A stretch of 64,000 nt of DNA from Amphiura filiformis (lineage: Eukaryota > Echinodermata > Ophiuroidea > Amphilepidida > Amphiuridae): contig NC_092641.1 in NCBI RefSeq assembly GCF_039555335.1, positions 30,812,848-30,876,847 of the forward strand. The letters run 5' to 3'. Positions 9,801 through 62,985 of the stretch are shown here, piece after piece. Position 1 is the first letter of the stretch. Every line of letters starts with the position of its first letter. Position numbers and translations under genes: made by a program. The notes under the pieces are model-generated. The model had not been told where the DNA came from, ran no database searches, and saw nothing but the letters and a program-made list of their open reading frames with translations.

Positions 9801-10709
9801 CGATCTAACATTGCCTCTGATTGGTCAATTACATGATATCTTCACTTTAATCACCAATCAGAATGGAGCTTTGCAAATAATTAGCCCTAATTTTTTGTGT
9901 GGTGAAATTATTCAAACACTTACTGATTGGTCCAATTGATAATGAAAACTTCTTTTTTGGCCAGTAGGCAGGTAGTTCTCATGTCGGTGTATTTCTTGCC
10001 TTTCAGTTGTATGCGGTCGAGTACAGCCGTGACAGAAGAAGGTGGGATTCTGCTGATACCACGACCAAATTGACGTTTGAAGTGACAGGTCTGGTTTCTG
10101 GGTTGACCTACCTGTTCAGGGTGCATGTGTCTACAGAACACTGCACAGACGCACCGTTTTCAAATATCGCTCAAGCAAAAACAAAATTTGGTGAGATATA
10201 TTTTGTACATGACTGTCTTTGTAAGATTAGGTTCACAAAACAATTTGGGTATTCTATTTCAAATCCGCACTCCCTCCTGTGAAATATTTTGCTAAAGTCT
10301 TCCACAGAGGGAGTGTAGAATAGACAACTGGGTAACTTCCACTCAAAATATGCACCAGTTGTAGAAAATATAGGTCATATACAGGTGCGTATCCAGGAAT
10401 TCGTAGACCGGGGGGCGCAAATTAGATCTTTGTGAAATATAACATGGCCGCAAAGCGGACATCCCGGGCCGCTTGCGCGACGCAGGGGGGTGTCTGAGGG
10501 GGGATGTGCCCCCCTGAGAAGTGAGAAACTTTTACAAAATGAAGACCTTATTGAAGGCATTTGGTGGACCATTTGGCACTATTATTGTGTAAAATTTCCC
10601 CCCCCCCCCCTGAGATCAGAAGTTGGGAAATTTTCAAAATGAAGGTCTAATGGTAATCCCCCTTAACATTTTTTTGGTATGTTGATCGTCCCTTTCTCCT
10701 CTTCTTTCC

Positions 10710-10748
<39 letters not shown>

Positions 10749-13700
10749 CCTCTCTCCTCTCTTTCCCCTTCTCTCTCCTCTTTCCCCATTTTTTTACCCG
10801 GGGGGCGCGCGCCCCCTTCGCCCCTCCCCTGGATACGCGCCTGATATAGGGGGATTACGGGTTTCAAAATAATTAACCCTAGCCAAGTCCATTGGCAAAA
10901 CATACTCCCTCTGTGAAATAGTTTCCTGAAAACTTCCACCGTGGTATGGCAGATTTCAATTCAAATGAATAGCCCCTTGTTTGATTGTCACCCACGTACA
11001 TACATGTACCACCTGCTCTGAATTTGAAAATGGGGGGGAAAAGTTTTTACTGTGCAAATGAAGATTTTGAAAATGTGTGAAAAAGGGGTGTTTTTTTAGC
11101 AGAATCTTTGGTTGCACAAATAGGTCAACTATTTGTAGTCGTGCCCAATTAGTTATTGGTAGTCGTGACTTTATTATGATCTGGTGATAGTCTGCCATCT
11201 GTTGGGCTATTCCACTTAAAATTCTTGTCTGTCTTGTTCCAAACATCAAGTATGTTGACCTTTTTCCCTTCTTCCCATCATGCACTATTCCAGGGGTATG
11301 ACTTAGTACATGTATCGCATAGATTGGGTGCAACTGATAGTCTTTTCAATTATTTTTTTCGTAATAAGGGCATACTGATATATATGTGGATTATCGTAGA
11401 GTGATGTAGATAATCTGCAAGTTATCAGTGGTTTCATATTTTTTAACATTTTTTAAACGGGTGCAGGCAGTCTATCACTGTGTATCCTATGAATAGTTTT
11501 GCACCTTCGGGTCTATAAAGCGTATAAAAATTTAGGTTTGAGGAACACAAAACTTTTTTTTGACGATCCCATTTCATTTAAGGGGGTACTACACCCCTGC
11601 ACAATTTTGTGCCTATTTTTGCATATTTCTCAAAAATTATAGCGCATTGGGGACAAGTAAGATATGTATATTATAGGGGCAAGGACTACAACTACTGCAC
11701 TGGATATTTTATTTCAGCACAGACAACAGTTGTGGAGTTACAGTCAAAAATGAGGGAAAACCAATATTTAATCAATAAATCGATAACTACTTGCTTTGAG
11801 TTGCTGAATTTTTAGTACAGTAGTTGTAGTCCTTGCCCCTATAATATACATATCTTACTTGTCCCCAATGTGCTATAATATTTGAGAAAAATGCAAAAAT
11901 AGGCACAAAATTGGTCAGGGATGTAGTACCCCCTTAAGACTAGAAAGGTTGTTTTTTTGGCTACCGAAGGGTATCAGTCCTAATCCCTATGAGTGTCTTT
12001 GTTATTATTCCTATAATTGTAAAACAAACATTCTTTCTCCCTTTGCATGGAAATTCTTAGATGGATCAGGAATACAGCCACCAAGGATGTTGAAGACTAT
12101 GAGAATTAAATTAACAGAAGTACACCTGCAGTGGAATACACCCACGGATGCACCACCAGATTCACCTTTGGTAAGGTCAACAGGAACTTGTCTTTGTCTC
12201 GATCAAATATCAATCTTCTTAAGGGATCTGGAATGAGTGTTTTGAGCGTTTCGACAGTATTTTTTGTGGGACATGAGAGCACAGACATATTGAATTGCAT
12301 TCTGAATACGAAGAATGTCTTTCTGATATCAAATAATTTTCATTTTCTGAAATTCACGATATAATACAAATTTTATGACAAATGATTAAAATTTGATATT
12401 TTTCACATTTTTGATATATAACAGTCCTCGAAGTAAATTTCATAAATCTAATGACATATTCTTAAAGTGTATGTAGCTGGGAGGAAGATCTGGGAGATTG
12501 AAGATATGGATTTTTTTCCCAAAAAGACCTAATTGTTTTTGGTGTTTTGGGGGAAAAATCCATTAAAAATATGATATTAGATTTATAAAATTTACTTCGA
12601 GTACTGTTAAATATCAAAAATATCAATTTTTAATCATTTGCCATAAAATGTGTATTACATTGCGAATTTCAAAGTATGAAAATTATTTGATATCTCTGGA
12701 CATTCTTCGTATTCAGAATGCAATTCGATATGTCTGATGTGCTCTAATGTCCCACAATAAATACTGTCCAAACGTTCATACCCCACCCCTTAATTCTCCC
12801 TTATTACACTCTTTATATAAATTTAAAAAAGATTTTATGAAATGTAAAAGAGTGTGTGTAGTCTTTATTGTTTTACACATCTGGACCAATTTATAGCATC
12901 GCACATCATTGCGTTCATCAGTTACAATGGTTCATTATGTATAAAAGAGGCTGTTTTGAAAGTTACATCTGAGTCCATAGGAGTCAACTCTCAAACAATA
13001 CAGTAGGTCCGGTCTATTCATGTGTTTGTGTAAATGACAATTCTCGCTATTCACAATAAGGCGCCAGCGGTTTGCGATGTAATCGTGATGTATCATGGGA
13101 AAAGGTCGACATCCAAGTCCGCGCAATACGAATATTACCATGCTATTACATAGGAACATGTGACAATATTTTTATAGTTTGTCAAAATAAAGGTGTTACA
13201 CGCGAATCGATACTCAATAATACTTAATAATGTGATTTGAAATGTGCACAATTAATTTTTCTCTATCGATTTGCGTGTAATACCGTTATATTGACAAACT
13301 AAAAATATTGTCACGTGTTCCTATGTAATAGCATGGTAATATTCAGACAAGCAGACTTGATGTCGACCTTTTCCCATGATACATCACGATTACATCGCAA
13401 ACCGCTGGCGCTCTTATTGTGAATAGCGAGAATTGCCTCCTATGGACTATGGAATGTATGTTTGAGTGATGCAGCTTGCAAGTAACCATAATGGCTATTG
13501 CAGATGAAATCCACACACCCCTTATGGAAGACATTGTGCTATTGTTGTTCTCTCTGCCTTGCGGGTAGATCTTGGTTGGAGTTTGTCCCCAATCCATTAT
13601 TTTCTAATTATTTTTGTTTGTAACTCCAATGTCATTATTGTATATCATTATCATTATTGCTATATTTATCATTTACTTTGTAGGTTCTAAAAATAGTCTT

Positions 13701-16700
13701 TTCACAATTTCTCATGTAAATGTTGGATTTAGGCTTCTGATTTGCTCATGCATGCATGTTTTGTTTTCATTGTTGTATATCCAACACTGTTACGTTTGCA
13801 ATCTATTTCATGTAATATTTTGGAAATTGTTTAAAATGATTTAATATACTAGATATGCCTACTGGTTACAAAATTGTTTCTTATTTATGTATTGTATACT
13901 TTTGTCGAATTTAGCTTTGATAAATCTTGGTAATTTCTCTACTTACAAGGCTTGTTTGTCTTTGTTCGTTTTTTCTAATGTATTAAATTTGTTTTGCTTT
14001 ATTTAGTATTGTATAATTGAAACATTATGTATAGGGTGCCACAACATCACGCTGTGCGTTTAGTGGCATCCTCATCCACTGCTTCTCATACTTTGTCGTA
14101 ATTTAAAACGTTCCACACTACTCTGTCAAAAGTAATTACTATTATGTATTATGTTTACATGTATAATTGAATGGATGAAATAAAACTGAACTGAGTTCCA
14201 CATAGGGAGTGTGAATTTCAAATGGGGTTACATTACCTGAATGGGTGACTCCATTTGAAATCTGTACCCCTGTTTGGGAGATCAGGTCAGGTCTTCTGTA
14301 AGGGGTATACATGGATTCCACCTGGAATATCCCATAGCTAATACAACCACTTGAAAAAACTTTGTGTGTGTTTCTTTTAGACTTACGTAGTCAACTATAC
14401 CGATGTCAACCAAGGTGACATGCAATCGGCAATAACGGATGCATCAATAAACACCACATACTCGTACATACTAACCGATCTGATACCGGGGCCACGTATG
14501 ACATCTCGGTTAGTTTGTCTGGTCTTGGAGCGAGAGAGAGCAAACATGTAAAAGCTACCACAAGTAAGTGTGTTTCGTACAGTAAGACCCCAAAGCTTTG
14601 TTTGTTAAACAGGATGATACAGATGTGGATGGGCCCCAGATTAGCCAAAATATTGTTGGGTTACCATTACATGAAAATTTTGGATAGGGTCCGGCTTTTG
14701 GATTTTTCTTTCTTTCCTATGTATGCTATGGCATGGAAATTTCTGTATTTCGGTCACTTTTTCTTCAAAAAAGATACGGGCACATTAATTAGAATATGGT
14801 ATTTATATGATATTAATTTGATAATTGTTTTCTCAGAGTTGCCATCGCCACCAGCAGATATTAAGATCAACTGTCTAGCAGGCAATGGGTTTAACCTGGA
14901 ATGGACAGCTGTTACAGTTGACTTTACCAAGGATTTGGTAAGTAGGCTTAGGCTTTGTAAGACTTAGGCTTCCTATATTCGCCGTTGTAGTGTCACATCA
15001 AAATTGATCCGTTGCCAGGTGAACTGTTCGCGCTATCCAACCTTGAATAGCAAGTCATTTAGGGCCTATAACTTCATAAGAAATTTGTATTATTTTTGTC
15101 GTATTTCGGGTACCCGGATTCCCGCCCGCAAATTCAATCGGGTACCCGAGTACCGTCGATGCTAGGTCGATCCTTACAATTGATGAAATATCAATTAATT
15201 AACTGTTTTTGCGATGACATGTAATCTTTGTATACAATGTATTAACCAATGGCATTCTAACAATATGTTTTGTTTTATCTGATAGATCATTAAAGGGGTA
15301 ACCCTATTGGTTTAGGATATCGATTTTCTCTGAACTTACATACATTGTCAAATATTGTCCCCTATATGTATGCATGTAAAAAAAAACTATTTTCAGCGTA
15401 AATGTGAATGAAATATCACAATCAGCAAGCCAATGACAGGCAAATTGCATTCTGGTCCCGATAATTTTAAACAGTAAAACAGGCAAAGGTATGCTGTATA
15501 CTCACTTCAAGTTCAAGTTTGATTTTATTTTGAGAAGAAACAGTCATTTTATGTCAATATAGTTCACTTTCATGGGTTTTTTTTCAGGGGGTGTAGATTT
15601 CAAATAGAGTTACCCATTAAGGTAACCCCATTTGAAATTCACACTCCCTGTGTGGAAGATTAAGGTCACGTCTTCCTTAGGGGTACATGGATGTCAACTG
15701 GAATACCATATTATTTCTCTTTTAGTTTGTTCCGGATCTGCATAATATTTGTGTGTAGCAAATTACTAATTAACATTCAAACTTCATACTTTATTCCCAA
15801 GGGTTATGCAATATTCAGATCGGTAGCAACTGTCAAGGACTATGAAAAAAATGAAATCACCAATCAAACGGAGTGGACGAATGTTGCCAACCAGTCTGTC
15901 AATTTCTGGTCATGGAGCGAGAACATCGAGGCGCTTGCTGCCCATCGAGTGTACATGTTTACTGTGACAACTGGCTACTACAAAGGCTACCATGGTGAAT
16001 TTGAAAAAGGAGAGTCGGCACAGGGAGTTTCAGACCTTCACAATTGCATGTCAGGTGAGGAAGGGTTGAAAGTTACCGTTGGTCATTTGCCTGCACCAGG
16101 GGTAGCACTAGGCTGCATTTTGGGGTCCCGGTCTCATCAAAATACAGTTTGGACCCCCTATTTTTTTAATTTTCTGCGAGTTCAGGGGTTCCTGCAGTCC
16201 CCCGGAGTTGCATTTGTGCAACTTCGACTCGCCAAACTCTACTACGGACCCCCTACTTTCAGATTTTCTGCAAGTTCGGGGGTCCCTACGGACTCTGGAG
16301 CGCTTTGTTCTAGTGCTAAGTCTATCAAATGTACCTATGTGTTACAAAGGTCACCATGGTCAATTTGATTCATAGCATGGGTTGTCAGACCCTAACAATT
16401 ACATGTCATGTGATTCTAATTACAGGCCCATTCAGTGATTTGCTCATCCGGACGATCGTAAAAATCATCAAAATTCAGATTTTGGTACCTTTGTCATTGT
16501 CATAGATGTGCTAATAATATAGCCTGCGAGTGGTTCAGCCGAAAGCTGTGTATTTAAGACAAAATTCTAGACATTTTACACGAATCTGTAATTTAGATAC
16601 TGACAGTATCTATGTAATTTAGATACTGACAGTATCTAAATTAGCTACATGTATTTGAATGGGGCTTCAACTTCGTCAGTACTGCTGTTTTCTTCGTTTT

Positions 16701-19628
16701 TTTTTTTTTTTTTGCCAAATTACAAAAATACCAAATGACAATTTGAAAATGACTTATCCTTCACTTTTAAGCAATTGATAAACAATTTTAATTTTTTTTT
16801 TACACTTTCTTTAATACGGGTGGCTGGCTAAGGCACTGTCTTTGATATAATATTGGATGGCTGAGCATGATACCATAACATATCGGATGAGTCGTAAAAT
16901 ATATCGGACGAGCCAACGGTGAGCTCGATATTTGTATGAGCGAATCCGATATGTTATGGTATCATGCTAAATAAGCCATCCAATATTATCATTATTAGGC
17001 AAAAAAAAAAAAGGGTTTTTTTTATTCCCGACTTTTTTTCATGGTATTTTGAGAAAAAAGTCTGATTTTTGCCGATTTTTTCTGGAAAAAACTATAAAAA
17101 AAATTTTTTTGAAATAAAAAAAATTTCTGCATTTGTTTTTTGTCAAATCGTGGGATTTTACAAACGCGCGCGCAAGCTTTGAGACAAACCTTTTTTTTTT
17201 TGGCCTTTCTTAACTCCTAATAACCCTGAAAACATAATAATGTGTGATACTGGCCAAGACCAAGGCAAAACACTGTAGTTAGAGAGGAGGAAGTTTTTAA
17301 AACCCTGCAGACATTTGGGTACTGGTTCTTAAGGTGGTACTGTACTACACCCCTGATAAATTTTGTGACTAATTTTGCATTTTTCTCAAAAAAAAACTAC
17401 ACATTGGTAACAAAAGTTATGTATATTATAGGGCCAAGGAATCCAATTACTTCATTGAAATTTCAGTGATTCAAGACGTAGACAAGTGGTTCATTATATT
17501 ATGTTAAGAAATGAGGTACATTCTAGCGGTACCTCTTTTCTTATCATGAATAACGTACCGCTTGTCTTGCGTCACTGAATTCCAGTGTAGTAACTGGATT
17601 CCTTGCCCCTATAATATACATAACTTTTGTTACCATTGTGTTCTTATTTTTTTGAGAAAAATGCAAAAATAGTCACAAATTTATCAAGGGGTGTAGTACC
17701 ACCTTAATGTTAGCATCATCTCACATCCAATTGTCTTTTCAACATCTTTTGTCACTATATTTTTTAAATGGTTTTATTGATAGAAAGGAAAACTGTAGAA
17801 CTGATAACCTGAAATATTGCGGAACAAGTTTCATTAATTTTCTAATAATGGACAATGATTTTCGTTCCCTTCAACAGGTATAAAGCCGCCACCGTCCCAT
17901 CAAAAAGGCAAGAAAATGCCCTGGGTAGCGGCGGTTGTCGTAGGGGGCGCTGTAATCCTCATCCTCGTCTTTGTCCTGGTCTACTTTGTGGTGAGACACA
18001 GACGACTACAGAACAGCTTCATGTCCTTCGCAAACAGTCACTATGACACACGGTCTGGAACGGCTACTTTCACCGCCGTTGATGATGACGGAGATGATGA
18101 TTTAGGTAAGGGGTCAGGTTTACTAACATTAGATTTCACTAACATTTGCGACATGTCGGAAGTCCTTTCACTTTTCACCTTGGTCTGGGTTGGACATTTT
18201 ATAATTGTGACTCAATCTGGTCCATGGGGCCAAAGGAGGCATTTTTGAAAATTGAGTTACTGTAATTATTACATTATACATAAAATAGGCTATCATTTGC
18301 TGAAAACACCAAAGGTCTAGCATACTTGGTTCTAAAGTTAAGAAGTTTTTTGATGTCTATTTTCTTATGTATTTTATTGTTTTTTTACTCCATATTTTTA
18401 CTTTTATCTCAGTTTTAAATTTGCGCCTTTGACCCCCCTGGACCAGATCGTGTCACAATTGAATTTTGAAGAGCAGCGAAGACATCACTTGCTATTCTAG
18501 GTGTTGAATCTACATCATATCCAAGATTTGGGCAAAAAAGAAACATTTTATTTGATGGTCGTTTGATGGCATAAAAGAAACATACGTTTTTATTTGAGGA
18601 CCGTTTTTCATATTATCTGGTGTTTAAATGAAGTTATATAGAAAGTGTATGGCCATCATTTTTACTAGCAATATAAAGTGATGTTTGGCAATAAAAATTA
18701 TTAATTTTCCTGATCCAACCTATCCTAATTTCAAAAGGCATGAACAATTTTAACATACAAAAGGAGATTTTCCAACTGTTCCGATCCCAGGGGGTACTCA
18801 ATGATCATACAGGGACGTGCACCAAACATCAACAATACCACAACAGTGATTAGCAGTCCGAATACAGATCGTCAATTGATATTTAAATCTGTGGACAGGT
18901 TTGAATATGAGAGAGTTCCATAAAAATTCTTATAAACATCTCAAAAAAGTAACTAACCCCTTAAATAATGACCATTATTCAAAAGCGGTGATTGTATTAC
19001 AAATCTGTAAAATGTGTTGGAAGCAGAATTTATTTCTGCTCATTTTGACACCTCATTTGTAACAATTGACTAAATATTGACGTCACAGCGTACATTTAAA
19101 TCAATGTAACCCAAGATTTGAAAGTTGCAGTAAATTGTATTGATTTTGTATTCAGTGTAATGGAAGGAAATCTGTGTAATGATATCTGAGTGTTTTTGTA
19201 TTGTAAAAATTTGAATGTAAGTGCAACTTTCAAATCTGAACCTCACTACATTAAATTGACCGGTGTTTTATTGTTTTCTGGGCTCTCGTATCAAATGAGG
19301 TGTCAAAATGCGCAGAAATAAATTCTGCTTCCAACACATTTTACAGATTTGTAATACAATAGCCTCTTTTTGAATAATGGCCATTATTTAAGGGGGGTTA
19401 GTTACTTTTTTCAGATGTTTATTTCAAGAAGGGTGTGGTCAAATGTCAAATTTCAAAAAGTATGTAACAGCTGATTTATTCTGCAACCACAATAGTTATT
19501 TAGTTTTCTACAAAACAGTTCTTTCAGGGACACCCTGTAACATCGTATTTTCTTTCCCTACAGGTACAGATGAAGATTCCCCAATGATACGAGGATTCTC
19601 GGATGACGAGCCTTTGTTCATCGCCTAA
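797..19628 (+). CDS. SORL1: SORL1/SorLA-like sortilin-related receptor, 3' half of gene (partial)
   Basis: Type I sorting receptor that carries cargo between trans-Golgi and endosomes. Exons read at 797-872, 2110-2219, 4351-4435, 8003-8199, 10007-10190, 12061-12170, 14381-14563, 14837-14937, 15802-16054, 17878-18105 and 19564-19628. All have GT-AG borders, and their phases join except for a 1-nt shift in the seventh. They encode the end of one FN3 domain, four full FN3 domains, a 23-residue membrane segment and a cytoplasmic tail with FANSHY and a terminal SDDEPLFIA. In known SORL1, FANSHY binds the VPS26 subunit of retromer and the C-terminal acidic motif binds GGA adaptors; vertebrate SORL1 ends in a very similar SDDVPMVIA. 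The VPS10, LDLR-B, EGF and LDLR-A parts of the family must lie upstream of the window. The tail match makes the identification strong. The FN3 numbering (likely domains 2 to 6 of six) is inferred. Confidence 0.93.
1355..1545. repeat. Nested inverted repeats in SORL1 intron
   Basis: Two adjacent hairpins. CATTATTATGTTTTG pairs with its complement about 60 bases on, and AAAATTGGAT...CAATATTTATTG pairs with CAATAAATAT...GATCCAATTTT. Probably a MITE remnant. The rest of the intron at 873-2109 shows nothing else apart from the MITE at 1875. Confidence 0.7.
1875..2050. mobile_element. Palindromic MITE, family A (GGGCTATTCC ends)
   Basis: About 176 bp that fold back on themselves. It starts GGGCTATTCCAGTT, has TATGGAAGACATGACCTTAA inside, and ends with the inverted TTCCATAGGGG...TGGAATAGCC. 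No open frame, so non-autonomous. Confidence 0.88.
2110..2219 (+). CDS. SORL1: SORL1 exon: first half of FN3 domain A
   Basis: 110 nt, entering in phase 1 and leaving in phase 0 at GTAAGT. The peptide has the FN3 opening pattern: PPTNVV, then LSWDAP, then PSG. Its length equals that of the exon at 12061-12170, which fits duplication of a two-exon FN3 module. Confidence 0.9.
2643..2931 (+). mobile_element. SINE copy, 5'-truncated (same family as 62090-62488)
   Basis: It shares GTAGATTAAATTCAG, CCGCTCTCCCCATG, GGGACGTTAAGC, AGTTTCGAAAAGAGTAGGGT and GTTATCCAGGGTTGTC, in the same order, with the reverse complement of 62090-62488. The tRNA-like head seen there is missing here. Confidence 0.85.
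3103..4030. mobile_element. Long foldback element, ~0.93 kb
   Basis: Terminal inverted repeats of over 200 bp. GTCCAGTC, CACCACTAATTGCAACA, GAGATGTCCCCTGAAC, ATACTTGGTGGAAAGGTAG and AAAAACTATACC recur inverted toward 4030. No coding frame. A diverged relative lies at 46906-47994, with the same CACCCACCACTAATTG motif. Confidence 0.88.
4351..4435 (+). CDS. SORL1: SORL1 exon: middle of FN3 domain A
   Basis: 85 nt between TATTATAG and GTAAGG, phase 0 in and phase 1 out. It encodes the FN3 C-strand segment with HYKIYTATTP. This domain has an extra intron compared with the domains downstream: its second half is split between this exon and 8003-8199. Confidence 0.88.
5255..5448 (-). mobile_element. 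Truncated copy of the TTAA element found at 49752-50070
   Basis: The right end matches the other copy inverted: AAAAGTTAGGGGATGATG, TGTGGATCACGAAATGCCC, then TTAA. ATCTGCAAGAAATATTTTGT and TACATAAACATTATGTA are shared internally. The opposite terminus is not recognisable. Confidence 0.75.
5722..6109. mobile_element. TTAA-flanked MITE with AGGCCCATTCAGTGAT termini
   Basis: TTAA at 5722 and at 6106. The ends are AGGCCCATTCAGTGAT and ATCACTGAATGGGTCT. The interior matches 16425-16803 over nearly its whole length (CTCATCCGGACGATCGTAAA, GATACTGACAGTATCTAAA). Confidence 0.88.
7218..8075 (+). repeat. Five tandem ~172-bp units duplicating intron 3' end plus 5' part of a SORL1 exon
   Basis: The landmark GGCAGCAATTGGTCCT starts at 7218, 7390, 7561, 7732 and 7904, a spacing of 171-172. 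Each unit holds intron sequence, the acceptor GATTCAACAG and the start of the FN3 exon (RNLCPGR through NRHGES). Units 1-4 then return to the repeat start and lack the exon's 3' part and donor. Only the last acceptor, at 8002, leads to a full exon. Units differ by a few substitutions (for example GAAAGCACA against GAAAGCCCT), so they are not exact copies. Confidence 0.95.
8003..8199 (+). CDS. SORL1: SORL1 exon: end of FN3 domain A and start of FN3 domain B
   Basis: 197 nt. It begins after GATTCAACAG and ends at GTATGT, phase 1 in and phase 0 out. The first part encodes the FN3 F/G strands (YYFKVTAVNRHGESP) and the second part opens the next domain (APSSLHVT, then VTLGWNPVD). Two domains share this exon, so an intron was lost or never present here. 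Four upstream partial copies of its acceptor and 5' part make a tandem array at 7218-8075. Only this last copy continues to a donor site. Confidence 0.92.
8225..8388. mobile_element. Palindromic MITE, family A
   Basis: GGCTGTTCCAGTTGAGATCC at the left and GGATTTCAACTGGAATTGC at the right; hairpin, no open frame. It lies 25 bases past the donor of the exon at 8003-8199. Confidence 0.85.
8441..8608. mobile_element. Palindromic MITE, family A
   Basis: GGGCTATTCCAGCTGAAATC to TTTCAACTGGAATAGCC, with the inner CACACAGGGAGTGTGAATTT. The second copy within 400 bases. Confidence 0.88.
9006..9692. mobile_element. TTAA-flanked element, ~0.69 kb, AGCGGCACATTGGAATG termini
   Basis: TTAA at 9006 and 9689. 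Inverted ends AAGCGGCACATTGGAATGTC and GGCATTCCAATGTGCCGCTT. The short open frame inside (9358-9564) has no recognised domain and is probably chance. Confidence 0.85.
10007..10190 (+). CDS. SORL1: SORL1 exon: second half of FN3 domain B
   Basis: 184 nt after the tract TTGCCTTTCAG, ending at GTGAGA, phase 0 in and phase 1 out. It encodes YAVEYS, then VTGLVSGLTYLFRVHV, the standard FN3 C to F strands. Full length, with no stop. Confidence 0.92.
10254..10330. mobile_element. Family A/B MITE fragment
   Basis: A short hairpin with CGCACTCCCTCCTGTG and CACAGAGGGAGTGTAG. Both outer ends are eroded. Confidence 0.6.
10382..10843. mobile_element. Non-autonomous element with CAGGTGCGTATCCAGG termini, carrying (CT)n
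   Basis: Inverted ends CAGGTGCGTATCCAGG and CCTGGATACGCGCCTG. The interior has C-rich and G-rich runs and a CT microsatellite at 10705-10790. The terminus style (CAGGxGCGTA) resembles hAT-type elements. I found no clear 8-bp target duplication. Confidence 0.75.
10860..10975. mobile_element. Family A/B MITE fragment
   Basis: Contains ATACTCCCTCTGTGAAATAG and ends CAATTCAAATGAATAGCCCC; a degenerate hairpin. Confidence 0.5.
11578..11937. mobile_element. TTAA-flanked MITE, GGGGTACTACACCCC type
   Basis: TTAA at 11578 and 11934. Inverted arms of about 110 bases share GGTACTACACCCC, TTTTTGCAT, GTATATTATAGGGGCAAGGA and TACAACTACTG. Relatives lie at 17329-17707 and 52258-52601. Confidence 0.9.
12061..12170 (+). 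CDS. SORL1: SORL1 exon: first half of FN3 domain C
   Basis: 110 nt between AAATTCTTAG and GTAAGG, phase 1 in and phase 0 out. The peptide has PPRMLKTM and VHLQWNTP, the A and B strands of FN3. Confidence 0.9.
12219..12793. mobile_element. TTAA-flanked foldback element, ~0.57 kb
   Basis: TTAA at 12219 and 12790. Inverted arms of over 200 bases share GTGGGACAT, GAATTGCATTCTGAATACGA, AATTATTTGATATC and TAAATTTACTTCGAG. It begins only 49 bases after the donor of the SORL1 exon ending at 12170. Confidence 0.88.
12972..13447. mobile_element. Foldback element, ~0.48 kb
   Basis: GAGTCCATAGGAG pairs with CTCCTATGGAC. Inner arms share GAGAATTCTC-like sequence, CGCCAGCGGTTTGCGATGTA, GGAAAAGGTCGACATCAA-like sequence and CATGCTATTACATAGGAAC. 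A family A fragment (GGCTATTGCAGATGAAATCC) follows at 13490-13536. Confidence 0.85.
13600..14185. mobile_element. Possible LINE 3' tail
   Basis: T-rich sequence with no open frame that ends in GGATGAAATAAAACTGAACTGA, a style seen at LINE 3' ends. The call rests on this tail alone. Confidence 0.25.
14195..14333. mobile_element. Palindromic MITE, family A, left end missing
   Basis: Begins inside the family at CACATAGGGAGTGTGAATTT and ends with CACCTGGAATATCCC. Ends 48 bases before the exon at 14381. Confidence 0.8.
14381..14563 (+). CDS. SORL1: SORL1 exon: second half of FN3 domain C, with a 1-nt frameshift
   Basis: 183 nt between TTTCTTTTAG and GTAAGT. The sister exon at 10007-10190 is 184 nt. 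Read from the 5' end, the frame is good up to LTDLIPG (TYVVNYTD at the start), then goes wrong at a run of four G at 14488-14491 and meets a stop before the donor. Read from the 3' end, it gives TYDISVSLSGLG and ends in the expected phase 1. One base appears to be missing in or near the G run. This is either a sequencing or assembly error or a real broken allele; the intact flanking exons favour an error. Confidence 0.88.
14837..14937 (+). CDS. SORL1: SORL1 exon: first half of the last FN3 domain (D)
   Basis: 101 nt between TTTTCTCAG and GTAAGT, phase 1 in and phase 0 out. It encodes LPSPPADIKI and FNLEWTAV, an FN3 opening with a cysteine between them. Confidence 0.88.
15586..15706. mobile_element. 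Palindromic MITE, family A, left end missing
   Basis: GGGGGTGTAGATTTCAAAT through ACTCCCTGTGTGGAAGATTA to GTCAACTGGAATACC. Confidence 0.8.
15802..16054 (+). CDS. SORL1: SORL1 exon: membrane-proximal half of FN3 domain D
   Basis: 253 nt between TTATTCCCAAG and GTGAGG, phase 0 in and phase 1 out. It is longer than the other second-half exons and reads through YAIFRSV, WTNVANQS and HRVYMFTVTTGYYKG. Possible N-glycosylation sequons NQT and NQS are present. The open frame extends past the donor into the intron, so the border rests on the splice consensus and on the phase match to the next exon. Confidence 0.87.
16425..16803. mobile_element. MITE copy related to 5722-6109
   Basis: It shares GGCCCATTCAGTGATTTGCT, CGGACGATCGTAAAAATCAT and the GATACTGACAGTATCTA palindrome, which occurs twice here. 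The right terminus with GGGTC is lost. Confidence 0.85.
16846..16991. repeat. Inverted repeat, AATATTGGATGGCT ends
   Basis: ATAATATTGGATGGCT pairs with AGCCATCCAATATTAT; the inner arms share GCATGATACCATAACATATC. About 145 bp, MITE-like. Confidence 0.8.
17329..17707. mobile_element. TTAA-flanked MITE, GGTGGTACTACACCCC type
   Basis: TTAA at 17329 and 17704. Arms share ACTACACCCCT, TTTGCATTTTTCTC, ACAAAAGTTATGTATATTAT and AGGAATCCA. It ends 170 bases before the transmembrane exon. Confidence 0.9.
17878..18105 (+). CDS. SORL1: SORL1 exon: transmembrane segment and FANSHY retromer motif
   Basis: 228 nt, phase 1 in and out. A short basic stalk (HQKGKK, then MPW) precedes a hydrophobic span of 23 residues at about 17925-17993, then RHRRLQ as the cytoplasmic stop signal. 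FANSHY is encoded at 18027-18044, followed by an acidic stretch (DDDGDDD). In the known family this motif recruits the VPS26 arm of retromer for endosome-to-Golgi return. Confidence 0.95.
18929..19431. mobile_element. Foldback element, ~0.5 kb
   Basis: Arms of about 125 bases share AAACATCT, AAAAAAGTAACTAACCCC, TTAAATAATG, CCATTATTCAAAA, TACAAATCTGTAAAATGTGT and GAAGCAGAATTTATTTCTGC. It lies in the last intron of the SORL1 gene. Confidence 0.88.
19564..19628 (+). CDS. SORL1: SORL1 last coding exon: C-terminal acidic/GGA motif
   Basis: The exon follows TTTCCCTACAG and runs in phase to TAA at 19626-19628. It encodes DEDSPMIRGFSDDEPLFIA. Known SORL1 proteins end in DDVPMVIA, an acidic sorting motif bound by GGA adaptors. 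Here the two hydrophobic positions are L and F rather than M and V. Confidence 0.95.
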
Positions 19629-30762: not shown

Positions 30763-31244
30763 TTAAGGGTGCATGCCACTAAATCCGCGTGTGAAGCGGT
30801 TTCCGGTAAAAGTTTATCACGACTATAGTCCCAACTTTGCATAAAAAATGTGCAAAATCGGTACAATATTAACAATTTTAGTGTTGCAAATCGTGTTTTG
30901 CTAGAACTTGTGAATGTGATCTCTACTAATTTGAACAGAAAACGCGAAAATTTGAGCGATGTTTACGATGATGAGCGGATGAACACACGAGGTCAAAACG
31001 CGGTTAGCAGTCGGACGTAAACACGGGAAAATCGGGTCTTTTTATATAGCGCTATTTTTTCTCAAAAAGTAGACCTAAAATATGGTGTCATTTTCAGATA
31101 TGTTATGCAGAATTTTGTTCTGATTAAGATGATATCAAATATATATTTCAAAGTAAGACGTAACTCGACTTATAGCCTAAAACGTGACCCCTATTTTGCA
31201 CGTAAAGTCTATGGAAAGCTATTTTGTGGCATGTACCCTTTAAG
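30763..31244. mobile_element. ~0.48-kb element, copy 1 of a near-identical pair
   Basis: Ends AAGGGTGCATGCCAC and GTGGCATGTACCCTT are inverted repeats, and TTAA sits at both outer borders. It matches 32112-32588 over its full length; I noticed only a one-base difference in a T run. No large open frame. Confidence 0.88.
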
Positions 31245-32111
31245 GAGCAATTCCATGCGTTTTCCGCGCGTCTTTATCTATTTAAAATGCACGCGAAGAA
31301 AAGAGGAGGGACATCAACAAGCGCGTTCATGGACGCCGCCAGGTTTTTCGCTGTATGTGCGTTTGCCGCGAATAGGCCTGCTTTTATTTCCAATTTAATA
31401 AAAGTTCCGATTTTGGTAGAAGTTTGAAACCTTTTGATATGAATAAAGAAGAGTTTCAAAATATTGAAAACATTTTTTATTGGTGTTTAAATTACAAAGA
31501 AGTTTTTCAATTTCATTGTTATTTTTTAACCAATTTTTTTGTCATTTAAACTCAAGTTTTGGCCTTCAATTTTAATAGAATTACATAAAATATTAGATTT
31601 AAGATATTTAAGTTTCTAGTTTGCTTTATTTATACCACTGTCCAGTATTTTAAATTGTTATAACATTCAAAGTTTAATTTATATTAATATTTAATTTCAA
31701 ATAGCCATTCATTACATTTGCTTTTTGGACAAAACGGGTTAAAAGTGACGCTGAAGGGGGGGGGGGGTAGGCCTACTTGGTTGACATTTCTTGTCTTTTT
31801 AAATATTCTGCAGGTACTGAGAATGTTTTAATTTTGAAGTTATGCACTTGTAAAAGATGTTTAAAGAACGTTTACTCTTATCATCAATTAATATCTTCAT
31901 GAAAATAGCAAATCGGCAACCATTGTGCATTCATGTGCATGGCAAAATGACGAAAAATGGCAATTGTCGGCTATCATGCTTGTGCTTGAAATCGACATCC
32001 TGTCTAAAGTATGAAAGAAAATAACCCAAAATTTCTTACAATTAGTTCAAAATGTAGTGAAAAAGATAACAAAATCATTTTCAAGGCCTAAAACGATGTT
32101 TTAGCCTCTTC
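31245..32111. other. Spacer between the two 0.48-kb copies
   Basis: AT-rich sequence with a G run near 31756. A frame at 31224-31427 overlaps copy 1 and has no recognised domain, so I do not call a gene. Confidence 0.5.
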
Positions 32112-32588
32112 AAGGGTGCATGCCACTAAATCCGCGTGTGAAGCGGTTTCCGGTAAAAGTTTATCACGACTATAGTCCCAACTTTGCATAAAAAATGTGC
32201 AAAATCGGTACAATATTAACAATTTTAGTGTTGCAAATCGTGTTTTGCTAGAACTTGTGAATGTGATCTCTACTAATTTGAACAGAAAACGCGAAAATTT
32301 GAGCGATGTTTACGATGATGAGCGGATGAACACACGAGGTCAAAACGCGGTTAGCAGTCGGACGTAAACACGGGAAAATCGGGTCTTTTTATATAGCGCT
32401 ATTTTTCTCAAAAAGTAGACCTAAAATATGGTGTCATTTTCAGATATGTTATGCAGAATTTTGTTCTGATTAAGATGATATCAAATATATATTTCAAAGT
32501 AAGACGTAACTCGACTTATAGCCTAAAACGTGACCCCTATTTTGCACGTAAAGTCTATGGAAAGCTATTTTGTGGCATGTACCCTTAA
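32112..32588. mobile_element. ~0.48-kb element, copy 2 of a near-identical pair
   Basis: AAGGGTGCATGCCAC to GTGGCATGTACCCTT, with TTAA at the right and TCAA at the left. Same orientation as copy 1. Confidence 0.88.
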
Positions 32589-32926
32589 GTCAGCATATCA
32601 TCATTCATTTATTCAATACTCACTCATCAGTAGGCCCTTATTCATTCAGTAGGCTCTATTCACTCACTCACTTATTACTGATTTCATTCTTTCACTCAAA
32701 ATTTCCAAACGGCTCGCCAAAATTTGCTTGACCCCCCCTTCTTGGCCCGCCAAAAATCGCTCCCCCCTCACGGTCTGCCAAAAATCTTTGCCCCCCCTCT
32801 AGTGAGTTCATGAATGGCAGAATGAGTAATTGATTGGGTGGGATGTTTGTTGGTAGCGTCGGGGGAAAGAAACAAAATTGGTGCCTCTACCCCCTTCCCC
32901 CACCCGAGAATATCTTAGACGCAGTG

Positions 32927-35572: not shown

Positions 35573-36927
35573 TTAAGTCAGCCAAATTTGCCTAGAGAAC
35601 ACAATACTTATTTACATGTAGAAATTTAAAAGAACAGGAAGGTCAAGGAAATCTACATAAATATGTTGTCTATACTTCACTTGACTTGACCATGTGACCT
35701 AAATATATGATTTTTTTATAGCAGGGATTTTGATAGCAGTTCCACATAGAAAAACTGCTAGATCATCATGAGACTATAAAGATCTAGAAACACTACCAAA
35801 ATGCTGTTTTGTTAGCTGAATCTTTTTGATGAAAGTCAATCTTTGACAAGATGTAACTTTGCTATGGAAAGTGCTATGACGAAAAGGTTTTCAGTTTTGG
35901 CTTTCTTTATTCAAGGGCTTTAATTTGATATATAAAATGATGCAGTTTGATGGCAAATGTGAATTCACCTGACATACCTACAAACTCCCACGTGTTGCAA
36001 TGACATGTTTCAATATATTCAAAAATCATAAAATGCAACATTTGTTTTTTCAGCATTGACTTGTCAATGTTTCAACATTGAAATCATCAATTTTGTCAAT
36101 GTTTTTGACCTGAAAAGAGATTTCGGTACTTTTCTAACACTTTTAACTCCGTGAAAATTTTTAAAGTTGAAAACTTTTAAAGTTGACAAAATTGCAACCA
36201 AATCAGTGAAATCACAGTATATGTCATTGCTACAACAAGTGACTGGTAGTACATGATTGGTATGATTCTAAAGCTTGGAAGTAAAGATTTGAAATATATC
36301 TCAAAAAATAGTTCTGTCCAAATATTCAATGTAGTCGATGTTTTCAATGTTTTTATTTCAATGTCAATGGTCAATGGTTTTTTTTAACATTGCACTGGCC
36401 TAGTAACAAATTTAGAATGTTTGAGGACTTGTTCTCAAATTGTAGGAAGTGCCATAGGGTGTCTCCAGTGTAAGCTGTTCTCATTAGTATGTGTCGCAAA
36501 ATATTATGGACAACCTGTTTGACCTATCCCTGTATCTAGGCCTATTCATACATTGCTTGTTTTTATATTAACCTTTTTGTGGTGAAAATTAAATGATTAC
36601 AAATGTCTAAACTTGTCCGACGGCAAACCCGCTAAACACTTATATGTGTAATTTGCAGTCATTTGTAGACCAAAGATTTTGTTCTGATGGCTATGTATGC
36701 CTGTGAATGTACACAACAGTGGCGACACATACACATACATGTACACAGCACTTTTTTGAACTCGCGGTCGGAGCCGGGAGTTTCTGAGCCAGGAGTTTCG
36801 ATAATTGGAACTGTGCTAGTACAGCCCGATTTTGCTGGAGGGCAAACAATGCACTGTGGCTTTACTGCACTGAGCATTATATAAAGGAAACTTGAGTTCA
36901 TGACAAACTGGCCCTGAAAATGTTCAT
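35573..36927. other. Intergenic, no feature seen
   Basis: AT-rich DNA; TCAATGTTTT-like words recur at 36055-36375. No gene supported. Confidence 0.5.
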
Positions 36928-37029
36928 CAACACCAATATCAGCAGTAGATAGCTGCCCTACTTCATCAACACCAATATCAGCAGTAATATCTGCACTACT
37001 TCATCAACACCAATATCAGCAGTATATGA

Positions 37030-38390: not shown

Positions 38391-39066
38391 TACCAATATC
38401 AGCAGTAGATAGCTGCACTACTTTTTCAGCACCAATATCAGCAGTAGATAGCTGCACTACATTATCAGCACCAATATCGGCAGTAGATATCTGCACTACT
38501 TTATCAACACCAATATCAGCAGTAGATAGCTGCACTACTTCATCAGCACCAATATCAGCAGTAGATAGCTGCACTACTTCATCAGCACCAATATCCGTAT
38601 TGATGAAGCTACACTACTTCATCAGTACCGATATCAGCAGTAGATAGCTGCACTACTTCATCAACACCAATATCAGCAGTAGATATCTGCACTACTTCAT
38701 CAACACCAATATCGGCAGTATATAGCTATGGACACTACTTCAACAGCACCAATATCAGCAGTAGATAGCTGCACTATTCTATCAGCATCAATATCAGCAG
38801 TAGATAGCTACACTACTTCATCAACACCAATATCAGCAGTATATGACTGCACTACTTCATCAGTACCAATATCAGCAGTAGATAGCTACACTACTTAGTC
38901 AGCACCAATATCAGCAGTAGATCAGTAGACACTACTTCATCAACACCAATGTCAGCAGTAAATAGCTGCACTACTTAATCCGCACCAATATCAGCAGCAG
39001 ATAGCTACACTACTTCATCAACACCAATAATTGTATATTCATATGTATTGGTAATAAAATGAAAGT

Positions 39067-39275
39067 AATTAAATTAAACTTCAACACTACTTGTTTATTT
39101 TGCTTACCGGGAGCGCTTTCGAGAAAAGCAAGTGTGATATCACTTGATCAGGTTGGACTCTAGCCGTTTCCAAGAAAACATTAGAGCTAACAACATCGGC
39201 TGATGACAAGGAAGTTCCTCGGAAGCGCTCCCGGTAAGCGAAATAGACAAGTAGTGTTGAAGCTTAATTTAATTA
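39067..39275. repeat. Hairpin of ~0.2 kb just upstream of the zinc-finger gene
   Basis: TTAAATTAAACTTCAACACT with ACTTGT and GCTTACCGGGAGCGCTT pairs with its inverse at 39225-39275. It ends about 330 bases before the exon with the start codon. Next to it, at 39300-39465, are AAAACATTT-type repeats related to 43790-43990 and 58640-58870. Confidence 0.8.
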
Positions 39276-39605
39276 CTTTCACTTGTCAAATATTTGCTAA
39301 ATATTTCATCAATACTTTTTATTAACATTATGTTAGAATATTTTGCAGTGAGGTGTCAAAAAATGTTTTTGAATGTTATGAAAACATTTGATACCCTTTA
39401 TATAAGCCTACATAAAAACATTTCATGACAATGTTTTCTAACCCTTCATGAATTGTGTCGAAATTGAATTGTGTTTTTGTGTTTGCTGTGTAGGTACTTT
39501 ATTTGAAAAGTCTCACCTCCTCTAGTAATGCACCCTTTGATGTTTTCATTCCTTGCAAGATGTGAAATATGGTAAAACTTATTTTTATTTTTTATTTTCT
39601 TGTAG

Positions 39606-42600
39606 GTTGTAATGCTATCATTGTCAAATGGAGGAATCTATTGTTAGTTCAGCTCTGCCAGAAGGGACCCGTGAGTTACAGGATGCTATCCGTGTTTCCA
39701 TACCACCCAGCTGTCCACCAGCGGTGGCGCAGCAGATACGGCCAGTCGTCTTCAATTTGGATGCCGAAGTGAAGCAGAGAGACTTAGAAACTCAGACATC
39801 ACCATCATGGGATGAATTCCTCAGCTCATTTGAAAAATACTTAGCTCAAAAAATAGAGGCACTGCTAGCTCAGGAAATCAAAGAGAAGACCTGTGTACAT
39901 TTACAGGGACTGACTTTGGAGAAGGTATTGGAAATTGTTGTAGAACATCACAATGCAATTTGTGTGGTTGAGAAGAGAAGACCAGACTTAAGGCCTGGCA
40001 CGCGTAAAACATCACAAAGTGAGTACATTCTCAAAAGACCTGCCGAAAACACGCGAGAAGAACTTGAACAATGCGGTGATAAAGCAATCCACTGTGATCC
40101 GTCTGCGGAAATGCTTCAAGTAGGAAAGAAATCACGGAAGAGTGGCTTAAACAAGAGTGTACCATCCAAGCAAACTTGCTATCAGTGTGAAATTTGTGGA
40201 TTGAAAGTAAACACCATTACCAAATTAACTGCACATACAGCCAAACATACAAATTTGACCCCATACCCGTGTCAGAAGTGTCATCGGACATTCACAACCA
40301 AAGCGAGAATGAGAACACATATAAAAGCTAAGCATAACCCATTGGCTAGATTCAAAATAACATGTCGTTACTGCGGAAAGGCTTTAAAGGATATTCAAAC
40401 TAGAAACGAACATGCTAAAATAGTCCATCTTCGAGAGAAGAGCCATACTTGTTCGCTTTGCTCAAAAAGATATGTATCGAGGACTACAATGGTTATTCAC
40501 TTAAAGAAGAAACATGGTATCGGCGATTTCATAAAATGTCCATTTTGTGACTGCGAACATCCGTCCGGTCATACCCTAGGAACTCATCTAGCCAGCATGC
40601 ACAAAACACAAGTGCCACAATTACTTCTAAATATAACCGTTCATAAATGTCTGATATGCAAGAAAGAATTCAAATATAGGAATTGCCTGCTGAAACACGT
40701 GGGTAAGCATGGTAAGCCAGAATGCACGACATGTAATTATAGAGGGAAGAGACGAGAAAAGGCTATCGCAGAGGCGATCAGTGGTGGCATGGAGCCTGAA
40801 GAGGCCAAAGCAAAAGGTCTTGACGAGTTGGTAAAATGGAACAAGGAATGGATTAAGAAAGCAAAAGAGAAGAGAATGGTGGAGAGAGCAGCAAGACATG
40901 CTGCGATTATAACCAGAAGGGCTATAGCACAAGGTTTGGATCCGGAGTATGCCCAGGATTTAGATAGAGCTAAGAAGTGGTTGATGAGAGGGAAAGAAAT
41001 GGAGAAAGCAGAGTCTGCAAAGTCGCCATCCAAGAGAGTTGATAAGATGAGTGTAGAGGAATTAAGACTTTATCAGAAGAATAGTGAGAGACAAGAGAAG
41101 CAGTTAAAAATGGAAATTGTAAAGTTGAAGAAGAATATTCATAAAAATGCAGTGGATATGGCATTGGGAATTGTTGGAGAAGGAGCAGCTGATAGGGAGG
41201 TGCCAGGTGGAAGCTGTGGACCTCAAGATAAGCCCGTGTTCAGGACAAAGTCGGAAGCTCGTCGAATGAGACTTGTGAATCGAAAGTCATTGACTAATGA
41301 CAGGGGTAAGAAGACAATAGGTGCAGCTGATACGGAGGTCCCGGGTGGAAGCCGTGGACCTCACGATAAGGCTGTGTTCAGGACAAAGTCAGAAGCTCGT
41401 CTAATGAGGCTTTTGAAGCGGAAGTCATTGATTAAAGACACTGGTAAGAAGACAACAGATTTGCTATCAGGACAAAAGCGAAATGTTGAACAGGTGTGTG
41501 CAGATGATGATGAATGTGTAGAGCAAGTTGACATGAGGAATGCTGATCTTGTGAAAACAATTGGTGCTATGAATAAGATTGCGATTCCTCGTTTATCAGG
41601 TAGACATGAACCTGAATACAGGAAGCTGACAGGCAACAAAAAACAGTTCAAAGAGGCAAAAATGCAGCATGTAAATTCAGACCATTCTTCTAAGAGTCCT
41701 CCAAGTGAAGATCTAACCTGTACCGTTTACTCTCAATCACCAGCGGTAACCCACAAAATGATCAAACAAGATGTAGTCACCTTCGCTGTAGCTCGCAGCA
41801 AGTCTTCGCAGATTATCGGCACGCATATGCAGTCGATCCCATCCTCTACGACATCGTCAGCATTCAGTCAAGTGATCATCATTAACACTAATGTCCCTGA
41901 TTTGGTCAAGGCAAAACTTACAGCGGGTGAATTGAAGATGAACATTCTTCCACTTGCTATGAAACAGGATGATATCCAGGTTCTGCCAAGTAATAACAAA
42001 ACCACGTTGGCACCATCAGGGACATCGAAGAAAAAATGCCAAGAAGGGTCCAGTTCACATACAACTACAAGGGTCAAGCCTAAATACAAAATTAACCAAA
42101 AAGGCTGCCAATTTGCAAAACTTGGCTTGACTTGTACTGTTTATTCACAGTCACCAGAACTGACTGTAGATTTGATTAAGAAGAAAGAAATTGCATATGT
42201 TGTCACGCAAAGCAAGTCAAACGAAATCAAGGGTCATCATATGCGTACGGTCGCACCTTCTCCCGATGATGTTGCCAATCATAAGATCGTTATTTACTGT
42301 AATAATACTAGTGAAGTTCAAGGAACACTTGATGCTGGTGAATTAAATATGATTGTTCAGAAACCACCAGATGAAAATCCGTTGGTTGGTCAATCAGGTC
42401 AGACGGTGCAGCATTTGTTATACAATAGGTTTAGTGCAGAATTATCATCCAAAACAGATGAACAGGAAAATACACTGAACGTCATTCAAGAGAGAAGCCA
42501 AGGTCCCACATGTGTCATTTATTCCCAGTCTCCTGAACTTACGCATGAGATGATCAAGAACGATGAGGTAGAATTTGTTATTGCTCGCAGCGAATCGTCC

Positions 42601-43086
42601 GAAATCATCGGCACACACACACGAACTATACCATCAAAGGCAGATTCGGATTTTGGCACCGAGATTGTCATCAACACAAATACACCTGAGGTTGTCAGAC
42701 AGAAACTTTTAGGTGGTGAATTAGACATGCAGATTTTACCTATTCCAGAAGATTCTCTTGTCAGAAAAGGGGACGAAGTAAGCACGAAGAAATCACCATT
42801 CACGGTTTTACCGATGAAAGAAAAGGTGTTCAAAGAACTTTCAAGATCAAATCCATCGATTAAACATGTTTTTTCATCTGTGCTTGGCTCTGCACCACAA
42901 ACAGGTGCTGTGTCACAGGTAGATGATTCGACAGAGGGTAAGAGTAAGGCCAGTGAGACAGCGCCGTTGGATTCAGAAGAACGAAAGAGTGAAACAGTTG
43001 ATGATGATTGTGTCGAAATTGCTATTGATGATGACTGCATAGAACTTCCTGAAGGATCTTCTGTAAAATCACCCACAAAAAGATAA
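39606..43086 (+). CDS. C2H2 zinc-finger protein with three C-terminal repeats of an unrecognised domain
   Basis: Intact 1152-codon frame from ATG 39628 to TAA 43086. An in-frame stop at 39610 fixes the start, and AAAT-ATGG context is good. A likely splice acceptor (TTTTCTTGTAG, 39605) precedes a short 5' UTR, so the coding part is in one exon. Six fingers, C-x2-C with H-x3/4-H, at residues 187-207, 215-236, 246-267, 275-296, 304-325 and 341-361, then a lone CxxC at 366-369. Next comes a charged helical region (374-515) with a two-fold repeat (PEEAKAKGLDE against PEYAQDLDRA). A 46-residue tandem repeat follows (519-564, 565-610). Three copies of a domain of about 80 residues lie at 696-776, 834-911 and 960-1039. 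The acidic end has VEIAIDDD (1129-1136). Probably nuclear and nucleic-acid binding; its role and orthologue are unknown to me. Confidence 0.9.
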
Positions 43087-62200: not shown

Positions 62201-62985
62201 GGTTAACACCCTACTCTTTTCGAAACTGACTGCGAGATACATGTACAGGCATAGCTCTCTGTACACGGGACCGACGGCTTAACGTCCCATCCGAAGGAGT
62301 ACTTTCATGATTCATTTACCCAATTACATGGGGAGAGCGGATGTCTGAATTTAATCTACAGATGTTTCCAATAAATTTCAGACATTTTTGTCCAAGTCAA
62401 TATCCCAGCAAATTTCCGCTGCCGGGAATTGAACCCGGGACCTCATGCACTAAAGGCAAGTACCCTAACCATTAGACCACGCTCTCCACAAAAAAAAAGT
62501 GGTAATAACCATTCTATGGCCAAAAATACGTCCAGCAAAATACACCTGTTACCAGCTGTTAACATTAACAACCAAATGCCTCATGCGATGCGCAGGATTT
62601 CATAAGTTAGGCAGATGCGCCCACCACTGTCAGTCGAAGTCACTTCCAGGAAAGCTGGACTGAAGAAGGTCATCTGATGTCAAATAATGTGTCTCTTTTT
62701 ACATAAAGCTGTCAAGAAAAAATGCTTAATACTTTAAGGGACTTATAGCGTAATCTGTAACCACTGTAGAAATGTAATTATATCCATTATTTAATACATT
62801 CGCTGATAATATGGCGGGTAATATGGATTATTTTTTTGCCTCACCAGTTAAACACATTCCAGTTGGTGCTAGCATCTGATGGTATAAATTCATTTGCGTT
62901 CTTCCTGTACGATAATATTGAATGGAATGCTGGAACGGATGACCAAGGGGATCCAGAGTATGGTACGGGCAGGTTCGGAGCCACG
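53132..62985 (+). CDS. Secreted NIDO-domain protein, 5' part of gene (partial)
   Basis: Exons 53132-53201, 55374-55397, 59449-59570, 60297-60380, 61710-61931 and 62848-62985 join in frame to 220 codons, and the gene runs past the window end. Residues 1-24 look like a signal peptide (MKISSG, then FLVLTSILISVSC). The rest reads as a NIDO domain: LYDFGPSYGDS, INENGVVS, IAPFWASVDITEGGNVYYR, then WDRVSFFGHE and LNTFQLVLASDG. NIDO is an extracellular domain found in nidogen, alpha-tectorin, SNED1 and MUC4-type proteins. Without the downstream domains I cannot say which of these it belongs to. It is probably extracellular matrix or membrane-bound. No other gene lies close by on this strand. Confidence 0.88.
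53595..53943. mobile_element. MITE with TGTAAAAGAGTGAAAACTCA termini, in NIDO intron 1
   Basis: Left TGTAAAAGAGTGAAAACTCA and right TGAGTTTTTCACTCTTTTAC. The interior repeats ACTCTTTTTGAGTGG words on both arms. About 350 bp. Confidence 0.88.
54960..55272. mobile_element. Inverted-repeat element in NIDO intron 1
   Basis: ACACTGGGTAAAT near the left and TTTTACCGAGTG at the right. A strong inner hairpin (TTAAAATGACACTTTTAC, ACCAAATTTGGTA-type) lies at 55132-55205. Confidence 0.65.
55374..55397 (+). CDS. NIDO gene exon 2: candidate 24-nt symmetric microexon
   Basis: Preceded by a good acceptor (GTCTATCTTTCAG) and followed by GTATAT, phase 1 on both sides, so it can be included or skipped without a frameshift. 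It encodes DLYEYGPF, very like ELYDFGPS at the start of the next exon. It could be a used microexon that doubles the N-terminal motif, or a decayed exon copy. Confidence 0.5.
55491..55590. repeat. 100-bp hairpin, GGATGAAAT ends
   Basis: GGATGAAATAAAAACTCGAC and CGCC pair with GTCGAGTTTTGATTTCATCC, 94 bases after the microexon. The arms also share TTCCGT and ACGGAA. Confidence 0.8.
56632..57665 (+). mobile_element. TA-flanked Tc1/mariner-like deletion derivative
   Basis: 1034 bp. Left CAGGGTGTCCCAGAATGAT and right ATCATTCTGGGACACCCTG are exact inverses, each next to TA. It carries the N-terminal helix-turn-helix part of a transposase at 57104-57435 but no catalytic region. Confidence 0.9.
57104..57526 (+). 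pseudogene. Truncated transposase, helix-turn-helix N-terminus only
   Basis: 140 codons from ATG to TAA. QRRFLSKTYWQTGSYVETQR, RRFPRARVP and VRTRANIAAVWQAL have the pattern of the DNA-binding N-terminus of IS630/Tc1/mariner-like transposases (DUF4817-type, S-x-x-E-x-Q-R-x-F..RFP). After about residue 110 (FNRIM) the match ends and the frame reads unrelated sequence. The DDE catalytic domain is absent, so it cannot be an active transposase. Confidence 0.75.
57878..58152. repeat. Two tandem ~140-bp units
   Basis: TAGACTATCGAATTCGCC, GGAGCGACCATCGGTTTCGC, CAGTTTAAAACAAAGGGACG and GTTCGTAGTTAT recur at about 145-base spacing. In unit 1 GAATTCGCC is doubled. Confidence 0.88.
58640..58870. repeat. 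AAACGTTTT-type repeat element
   Basis: AAAACGTTTTTATAAC, GAACGTTTTGCATTAAGG, ACAACGTTTTGATACCC and TAAAACGTTTGATGGG. Related to 43790-43990 and 39300-39465. Confidence 0.6.
58988..59234. mobile_element. MITE with ATACCGTAAAACCTCGTCTA termini
   Basis: Left ATACCGTAAAACCTCGTCTA and right TAGACGAGGTTTTATGGTAT. Arms continue through CAAGCATAT and AAAGCTAAATTAAT; 247 bp in the intron before NIDO exon 3. Confidence 0.88.
59449..59570 (+). CDS. NIDO gene exon 3: start of NIDO domain
   Basis: 122 nt between TTTGTTGCAG and GTAAGT, phase 1 in and phase 0 out. LYDFGPSYGDS and FPYFNKLYKKAY match the usual opening of NIDO-containing proteins (LYPFG..GD, then FPFFG..Y). Confidence 0.88.
60297..60380 (+). 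CDS. NIDO gene exon 4
   Basis: 84 nt between GCTTTTACAG and GTAAGA, phase 0 on both sides. INENGVVS corresponds to the conserved N-x-N-G turn that precedes the NIDO core. Confidence 0.88.
61290..61582. mobile_element. hAT-like MITE with near-perfect 8-bp flank repeat
   Basis: CAGTGGTGTAGAT at left, ATCTACGCCTATG at right. Flanks GACATGTC (61282) and GGCATGTC (61583) differ at one base. The interior matches 33271-33478. The host sequence nearby repeats CATGTCCATGTCACAGGAA, which weakens the flank evidence a little. Confidence 0.7.
61710..61931 (+). CDS. NIDO gene exon 5: core of NIDO domain
   Basis: 222 nt between TTTTTACAG and GTAAGT, phase 0. It contains APFWASVD, GGNVYYRQV, VLDRATSEI and VTWDRVSFFG, the most diagnostic parts of the domain. 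Confidence 0.93.
62090..62488 (-). mobile_element. tRNA-derived SINE, full-length copy
   Basis: On the minus strand the head reads GAGAGCGTGGTCTAATGGTT (box A type), and GGTTCAATTCCCGG is a box B. The body follows, with GGGACGTTAAGCCG and AGTTTCGAAAAGAGTAGGGT, then GTTGTCAAAACC near the tail. The head looks like a pol III promoter of tRNA origin. The copy at 2643 shares the body only. Confidence 0.88.
62848..62985 (+). CDS. NIDO gene exon 6: C-terminal part of NIDO domain
   Basis: 138 nt between GCCTCACCAG and GTAAGA, phase 0. NTFQLVLASDG, FAFFLYDNIEWNAG and GRFGAT match the NTFQ..L..DG, F..Y..I.W..G and G..A order of the domain. The next exon (expected to start with a GFN-type motif) is not found before 64000. 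Confidence 0.92.

Follow-up and report, generated by a model that had tools for sequence, protein, structure and literature searches.

The window analysed here, a stretch of 64,000 nucleotides (64 kb) of the ophiuroid Amphiura filiformis (NCBI RefSeq assembly GCF_039555335.1, contig NC_092641.1, positions 30,812,848 to 30,876,847 of the forward strand), contains a gene for a C2H2 zinc-finger protein that carries three related copies (R1, R2 and R3) of a domain of about 80 residues. Six serial fingers in the first third of the protein follow the pattern C-x2-4-C-x12-H-x3-5-H that defines C2H2 zinc fingers, and the whole protein scores 46.3 bits with the Pfam family zf-C2H2_4 (E-value 3.7e-12; cut-off 27). 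The three copies are C-terminal to the fingers, separated by polar-rich linkers of 56 (R1-R2) and 46 (R2-R3) residues, and lie where an earlier sequence-only reading of this DNA had placed them (Table 1). Their relatedness is real: pairwise identities are 38-57%, varying with the pair and the alignment, and pairwise Smith-Waterman scores are 26 to 43 standard deviations above those of shuffled sequences (1000 shuffles each). A profile built from the copies scores each of them at 144-150 bits, as its construction ensures. The window, divided into 2866 six-frame pieces of 15 amino acids (aa) or more, yielded no significant fourth copy (best other E-value 1.6), and the three-copy profile found none in residues 1-695 of the same protein either. 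The motif that had been described for the domain, running from T-C-x-[VI]-Y-S-Q-S-P through S-x-S-x-x-I-x-G-x-H to G-E-L-x-M-x-[IV], was recovered in its parts, except that a proposed N-T/N reduces to a single invariant N.

The amino acid sequence of the copies is clearly better conserved than their silent sites. Between pairs of copies, the proportion of synonymous differences (pS) is 0.71-0.80 and that of nonsynonymous differences (pN) is 0.28-0.38, which bears out the earlier claim that the copies were kept under selection and did not arise by recent duplication. The ratios of nonsynonymous to synonymous substitution rates (dN/dS) are 0.16 and 0.23, with an infinite dS for R3-R1, and are only rough because synonymous change is near saturation; the same saturation led us to reject a recent duplication as the origin of R1-R3. 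The copies are therefore ancient, and purifying selection has acted on them. The basic 46-aa tandem repeat between the fingers and R1 (dS 0.27, dN 0.13) is a far younger, separate duplication.

The repeated domain was compared with known families, and none in Pfam-A or NCBIfam scored above its curated cut-off, in agreement with the earlier statement that no family with this signature was known. The best Pfam match of any single copy was that of R1 to DUF2064 (E 0.045 and 14 bits, the cut-off being 25.8); R2 had three matches with E-values of 0.046 to 0.13, R3 had none, and the best NCBIfam E-value was 0.072. The Fus3-binding peptide model Ste5 matched residues 646-1152 with an E-value of 0.0019 (18.6 bits against a cut-off of 27) and the whole protein with one of 0.033; no stretch passes alone, and the best one is 14 residues long, inside R2. 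The weak Pfam matches (DUF2064, pulA_all-beta, MGS, CtaG_Cox11, Ste5 and RE_HindVP) are all below their cut-offs and were rejected. Among PDB sequences, the three-copy profile listed three entries, all of DDC1 (E 6 to 8.2), and R3 alone listed two solute-binding proteins, 3ppn (E 0.77) and 4got (E 1.3), none of them significant. No relative of the domain was confirmed in viral contigs and prokaryote genomes, collections in which an animal domain is not expected, so that this result says little about its true spread. There was no sign of a mobile-element origin, in that no such Pfam family matched the protein and no further significant copies were found in the window, no dedicated search having been made beyond these. 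The domain is apparently undescribed, judged from family, structure and paper searches rather than from UniProt or InterPro.

Structure prediction, for which the input was the three sequences, with R1 entered as an alignment row and models made of R2 and R3, points to an alpha/beta domain. The AlphaFold2 model of R3 is fairly confident (predicted local distance difference test (pLDDT) 82.8, predicted template modelling score 0.68), with elements in the order beta-alpha-beta-beta-beta-alpha-beta, and rules out disorder of all three copies, one of two outcomes that had been named as counting against the earlier reading; the other, a confident Pfam match, did not occur either. The sequence-only reading had offered two guesses, of which alpha/beta fits the R3 model and all-beta does not; its expectation that the copies fold alike holds in part: the R2 model, itself of low confidence, orders its elements similarly, and the predicted layout is confident for R3 alone. 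Structure searches with the R3 model gave no significant match, and the absence of a family from the matches listed does not exclude it. The top Foldseek match was the periplasmic N-domain of FtsH (2muy), similar in length at 82 residues and likewise not significant (E 0.19, probability 0.18, template modelling (TM) score 0.29, root-mean-square deviation 9.5). It is unlikely, in our estimate, that the domain belongs to a known small alpha/beta fold, such as the ferredoxin-like or ACT fold, but has diverged so far that it escapes profiles and a three-sequence model; the order beta-alpha-beta ... beta-alpha-beta does occur in common small folds, and the model was fed by three sequences only.

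The two halves of R3, CVIYSQSPELTHEMIKNDEVEFVI and IVINTNTPEVVRQKLLGGELDMQI (C-V-I-Y-S-Q-S-P-E-L... and I-V-I-N-T-N-T-P-E-V..., respectively), look alike, and their predicted element layouts match (strand 2-7, helix 10-18, strand 23-28 in the first half; strand 52-58, helix 61-70, strand 74-79 in the second). Across all copies, the similarity of the first to the second half was not significant by column shuffle (observed score 13.0, shuffle mean 10.1, score reached in 155 of 2000 shuffles), and an internal half-repeat was therefore rejected as an established fact. In nine single comparisons of a first with a second half, the one within R3 was alone in being outstanding (score reached in 1 of 200 shuffles) and was followed by R3 with R2 (11 of 200). 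It seems distinctly improbable that the domain represents a new fold, confined to some animals, of two beta-alpha-beta halves and an extra strand, derived from an ancient internal duplication, of which six half-units would form a trivalent reader on a DNA-binding array. If it were true that the fold is new, this would matter to structural biology also.

R1-R3 share 24 invariant positions, and polar residues, among which T, C and Y are included, fill 13 of them. Of the 10 loop positions after strands 1, 2 and 4, 6 are invariant; elsewhere in the loops the count is 3 of 18 (Fisher p 0.035, for a loop grouping chosen post hoc and three sequences only). The usual binding site of alpha/beta domains is at the strand ends that precede helices, and with conserved loops in these places a shared binding surface may therefore be proposed. 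We put at about an even chance the reading that the protein is a nuclear C2H2 DNA-binding regulator whose three copies of the undescribed alpha/beta domain dock one kind of partner. The six fingers would choose the DNA sites, and the C-terminal part would consist of three domain beads on polar linkers, each binding the same type of partner through a conserved polar surface made of Y-S-Q-S-P where strand 1 ends, S-x-S-x-x-I-x-G-x-H following strand 2 and the N following strand 4. With three beads acting together, binding would gain avidity, and a cofactor complex would be recruited to the DNA sites that the fingers select.

Several points weigh against this docking function. The three invariant positions of the other loops are all in the G-E-L after helix 2 (3 of 3), which would be on the opposite side, and both this placement and a single face shared by the conserved loops are assumptions from the order of elements. 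Three sequences cannot tell functional from structural conservation, three of the five R3 models had scores of only 37-43, and the R2 model is weak (54.7). Serine, threonine or asparagine just ahead of both helices (S-Q-S-P-E and N-T-N-T-P-E in R3) would also suit a module for a small molecule, nucleotide or phospho group, held in an anion pocket; on binding, the domain would modulate the zinc-finger protein in the manner of an effector domain. The weak resemblance of R3 to two solute-binding proteins points the same way, but the chains of 3ppn and 4got are 249-311 residues long against about 80 here, no match to any ligand-binding family is significant, the second loop is altered in R2 (C-N-N-T-S-E), and FepB (3tlk; E 3.1, TM score 0.22) is no better than unrelated entries among the 50 Foldseek matches listed. 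A ligand-binding module is considered quite unlikely.

The remaining features of the gene are listed in Table 1. A T-rich tract just upstream of the ATG resembles a splice acceptor, and suggests an intron in the 5' untranslated region followed by a single coding exon. The N-terminal 180 aa alone matched no Pfam family, and residues 370-696, which hold the 46-aa repeat, gave alone one weak Pfam match (HdcB, E 0.11). The acidic/hydrophobic segments near the C-terminus may resemble SUMO-interacting motifs, in which acidic residues flank a hydrophobic core that binds SUMO, although a crude pattern for such motifs matched at residue 111 only and not in these segments.

Table 1. Coordinates of features of the zinc-finger gene in the window
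Feature	Positions	Strand	Remarks
Splice-acceptor-like T-rich tract	39580..39605	+	Ends TTTTCTTGTAG; 22 bases upstream of ATG; read by eye
Coding frame	39628..43086	+	1152 aa; six C2H2 fingers and three domain copies
Six C2H2 zinc fingers	40186..40710	+	Residues 187-361
Two tandem basic 46-aa units	41181..41456	+	138 nucleotides each, DNA 86% identical; between fingers and R1-R3
Domain copy R1	41713..41958	+	Residues 696-777
Domain copy R2	42127..42366	+	Residues 834-913; most diverged
Domain copy R3	42505..42747	+	Residues 960-1040; structure model confident for this copy only
Acidic/hydrophobic segments DDDCVEIAI and DDDCIEL	43000..43047	+	C-terminal; residues 1125-1140

The window as a whole looks eukaryotic: its 64 kb contain four ORFs (open reading frames) of 150 aa or more, and some short open pieces in it have matches to FN3 or NIDO. 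Ten open pieces were chosen out of 221 stop-to-stop frames for family matching; two match FN3 (one of them, 2049-2276, below its cut-off) and two match NIDO. FN3-like pieces and membrane-tail-like sequence lie within 2049-19628. Five 171-bp tandem copies with 95% matches (7217-8073) overlap an FN3 match; they were duplicated recently, unless they are an artefact of the assembly. The membrane-tail-like sequence, at 17859-18248 and 19392-19628, contains FANSHY and GFSDD...IA, apparently as in SORL1/SorLA; the first tail piece had no significant match among PDB sequences. A segment of about 490 bp is directly duplicated (30765-31249 and 32112-32595), in two blocks that are 100% and 98% identical and 1347 and 1346 bp apart, and a minisatellite of about 39 bp is present at 38392-39029 (16.2 copies) and 36923-37024 (2.6 copies), partly open in frames of both strands. 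An inverted repeat at 39057-39284, with 70-nucleotide arms that are 91% complementary and 88 nucleotides apart, lies about 340 bp upstream of the zinc-finger ORF and is perhaps a small foldback mobile element. No tRNA genes were found in the window by ARAGORN; a tRNA-like Rfam match at 62421-62480 on the minus strand (38 bits, gathering threshold 29), uncalled by that program and located between the two NIDO matches, is perhaps a tRNA-derived short interspersed element.

A constrained, apparently folded and tripled domain with no match above a cut-off in Pfam or NCBIfam and none of significance among PDB sequences offers three pieces of about 80 residues for partner searches, although it may be just a modest addition to the unnamed protein domains. 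According to a review, C2H2 proteins commonly carry interaction domains beside their fingers, proteins whose C2H2 cluster is central are mostly without a further conserved domain, and what ZAD and SCAN chiefly share is a preference for forming homodimers (PMC5509000). A role like that of ZAD or SCAN, in which the copies would pair within or between molecules, would suit the tandem triplication, which favours multivalent assembly, but neither of these domains, nor BTB or KRAB, is among the eight Pfam families listed up to an E-value of 10 for the whole protein (the filters of HMMER drop most matches above about 0.1), and this putative self-association is very improbable in our judgement. Like the KRAB, SCAN, ZAD and BTB proteins of that review (PMC5509000), the present protein joins a C2H2 array to separate domains; unlike them, it has an extra domain that lies on the C-terminal side of the fingers, is predicted to be alpha/beta and occurs in three copies. 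Thus, the protein is a variant of the C2H2-plus-accessory-domain kind, with an accessory domain that is apparently new to description.
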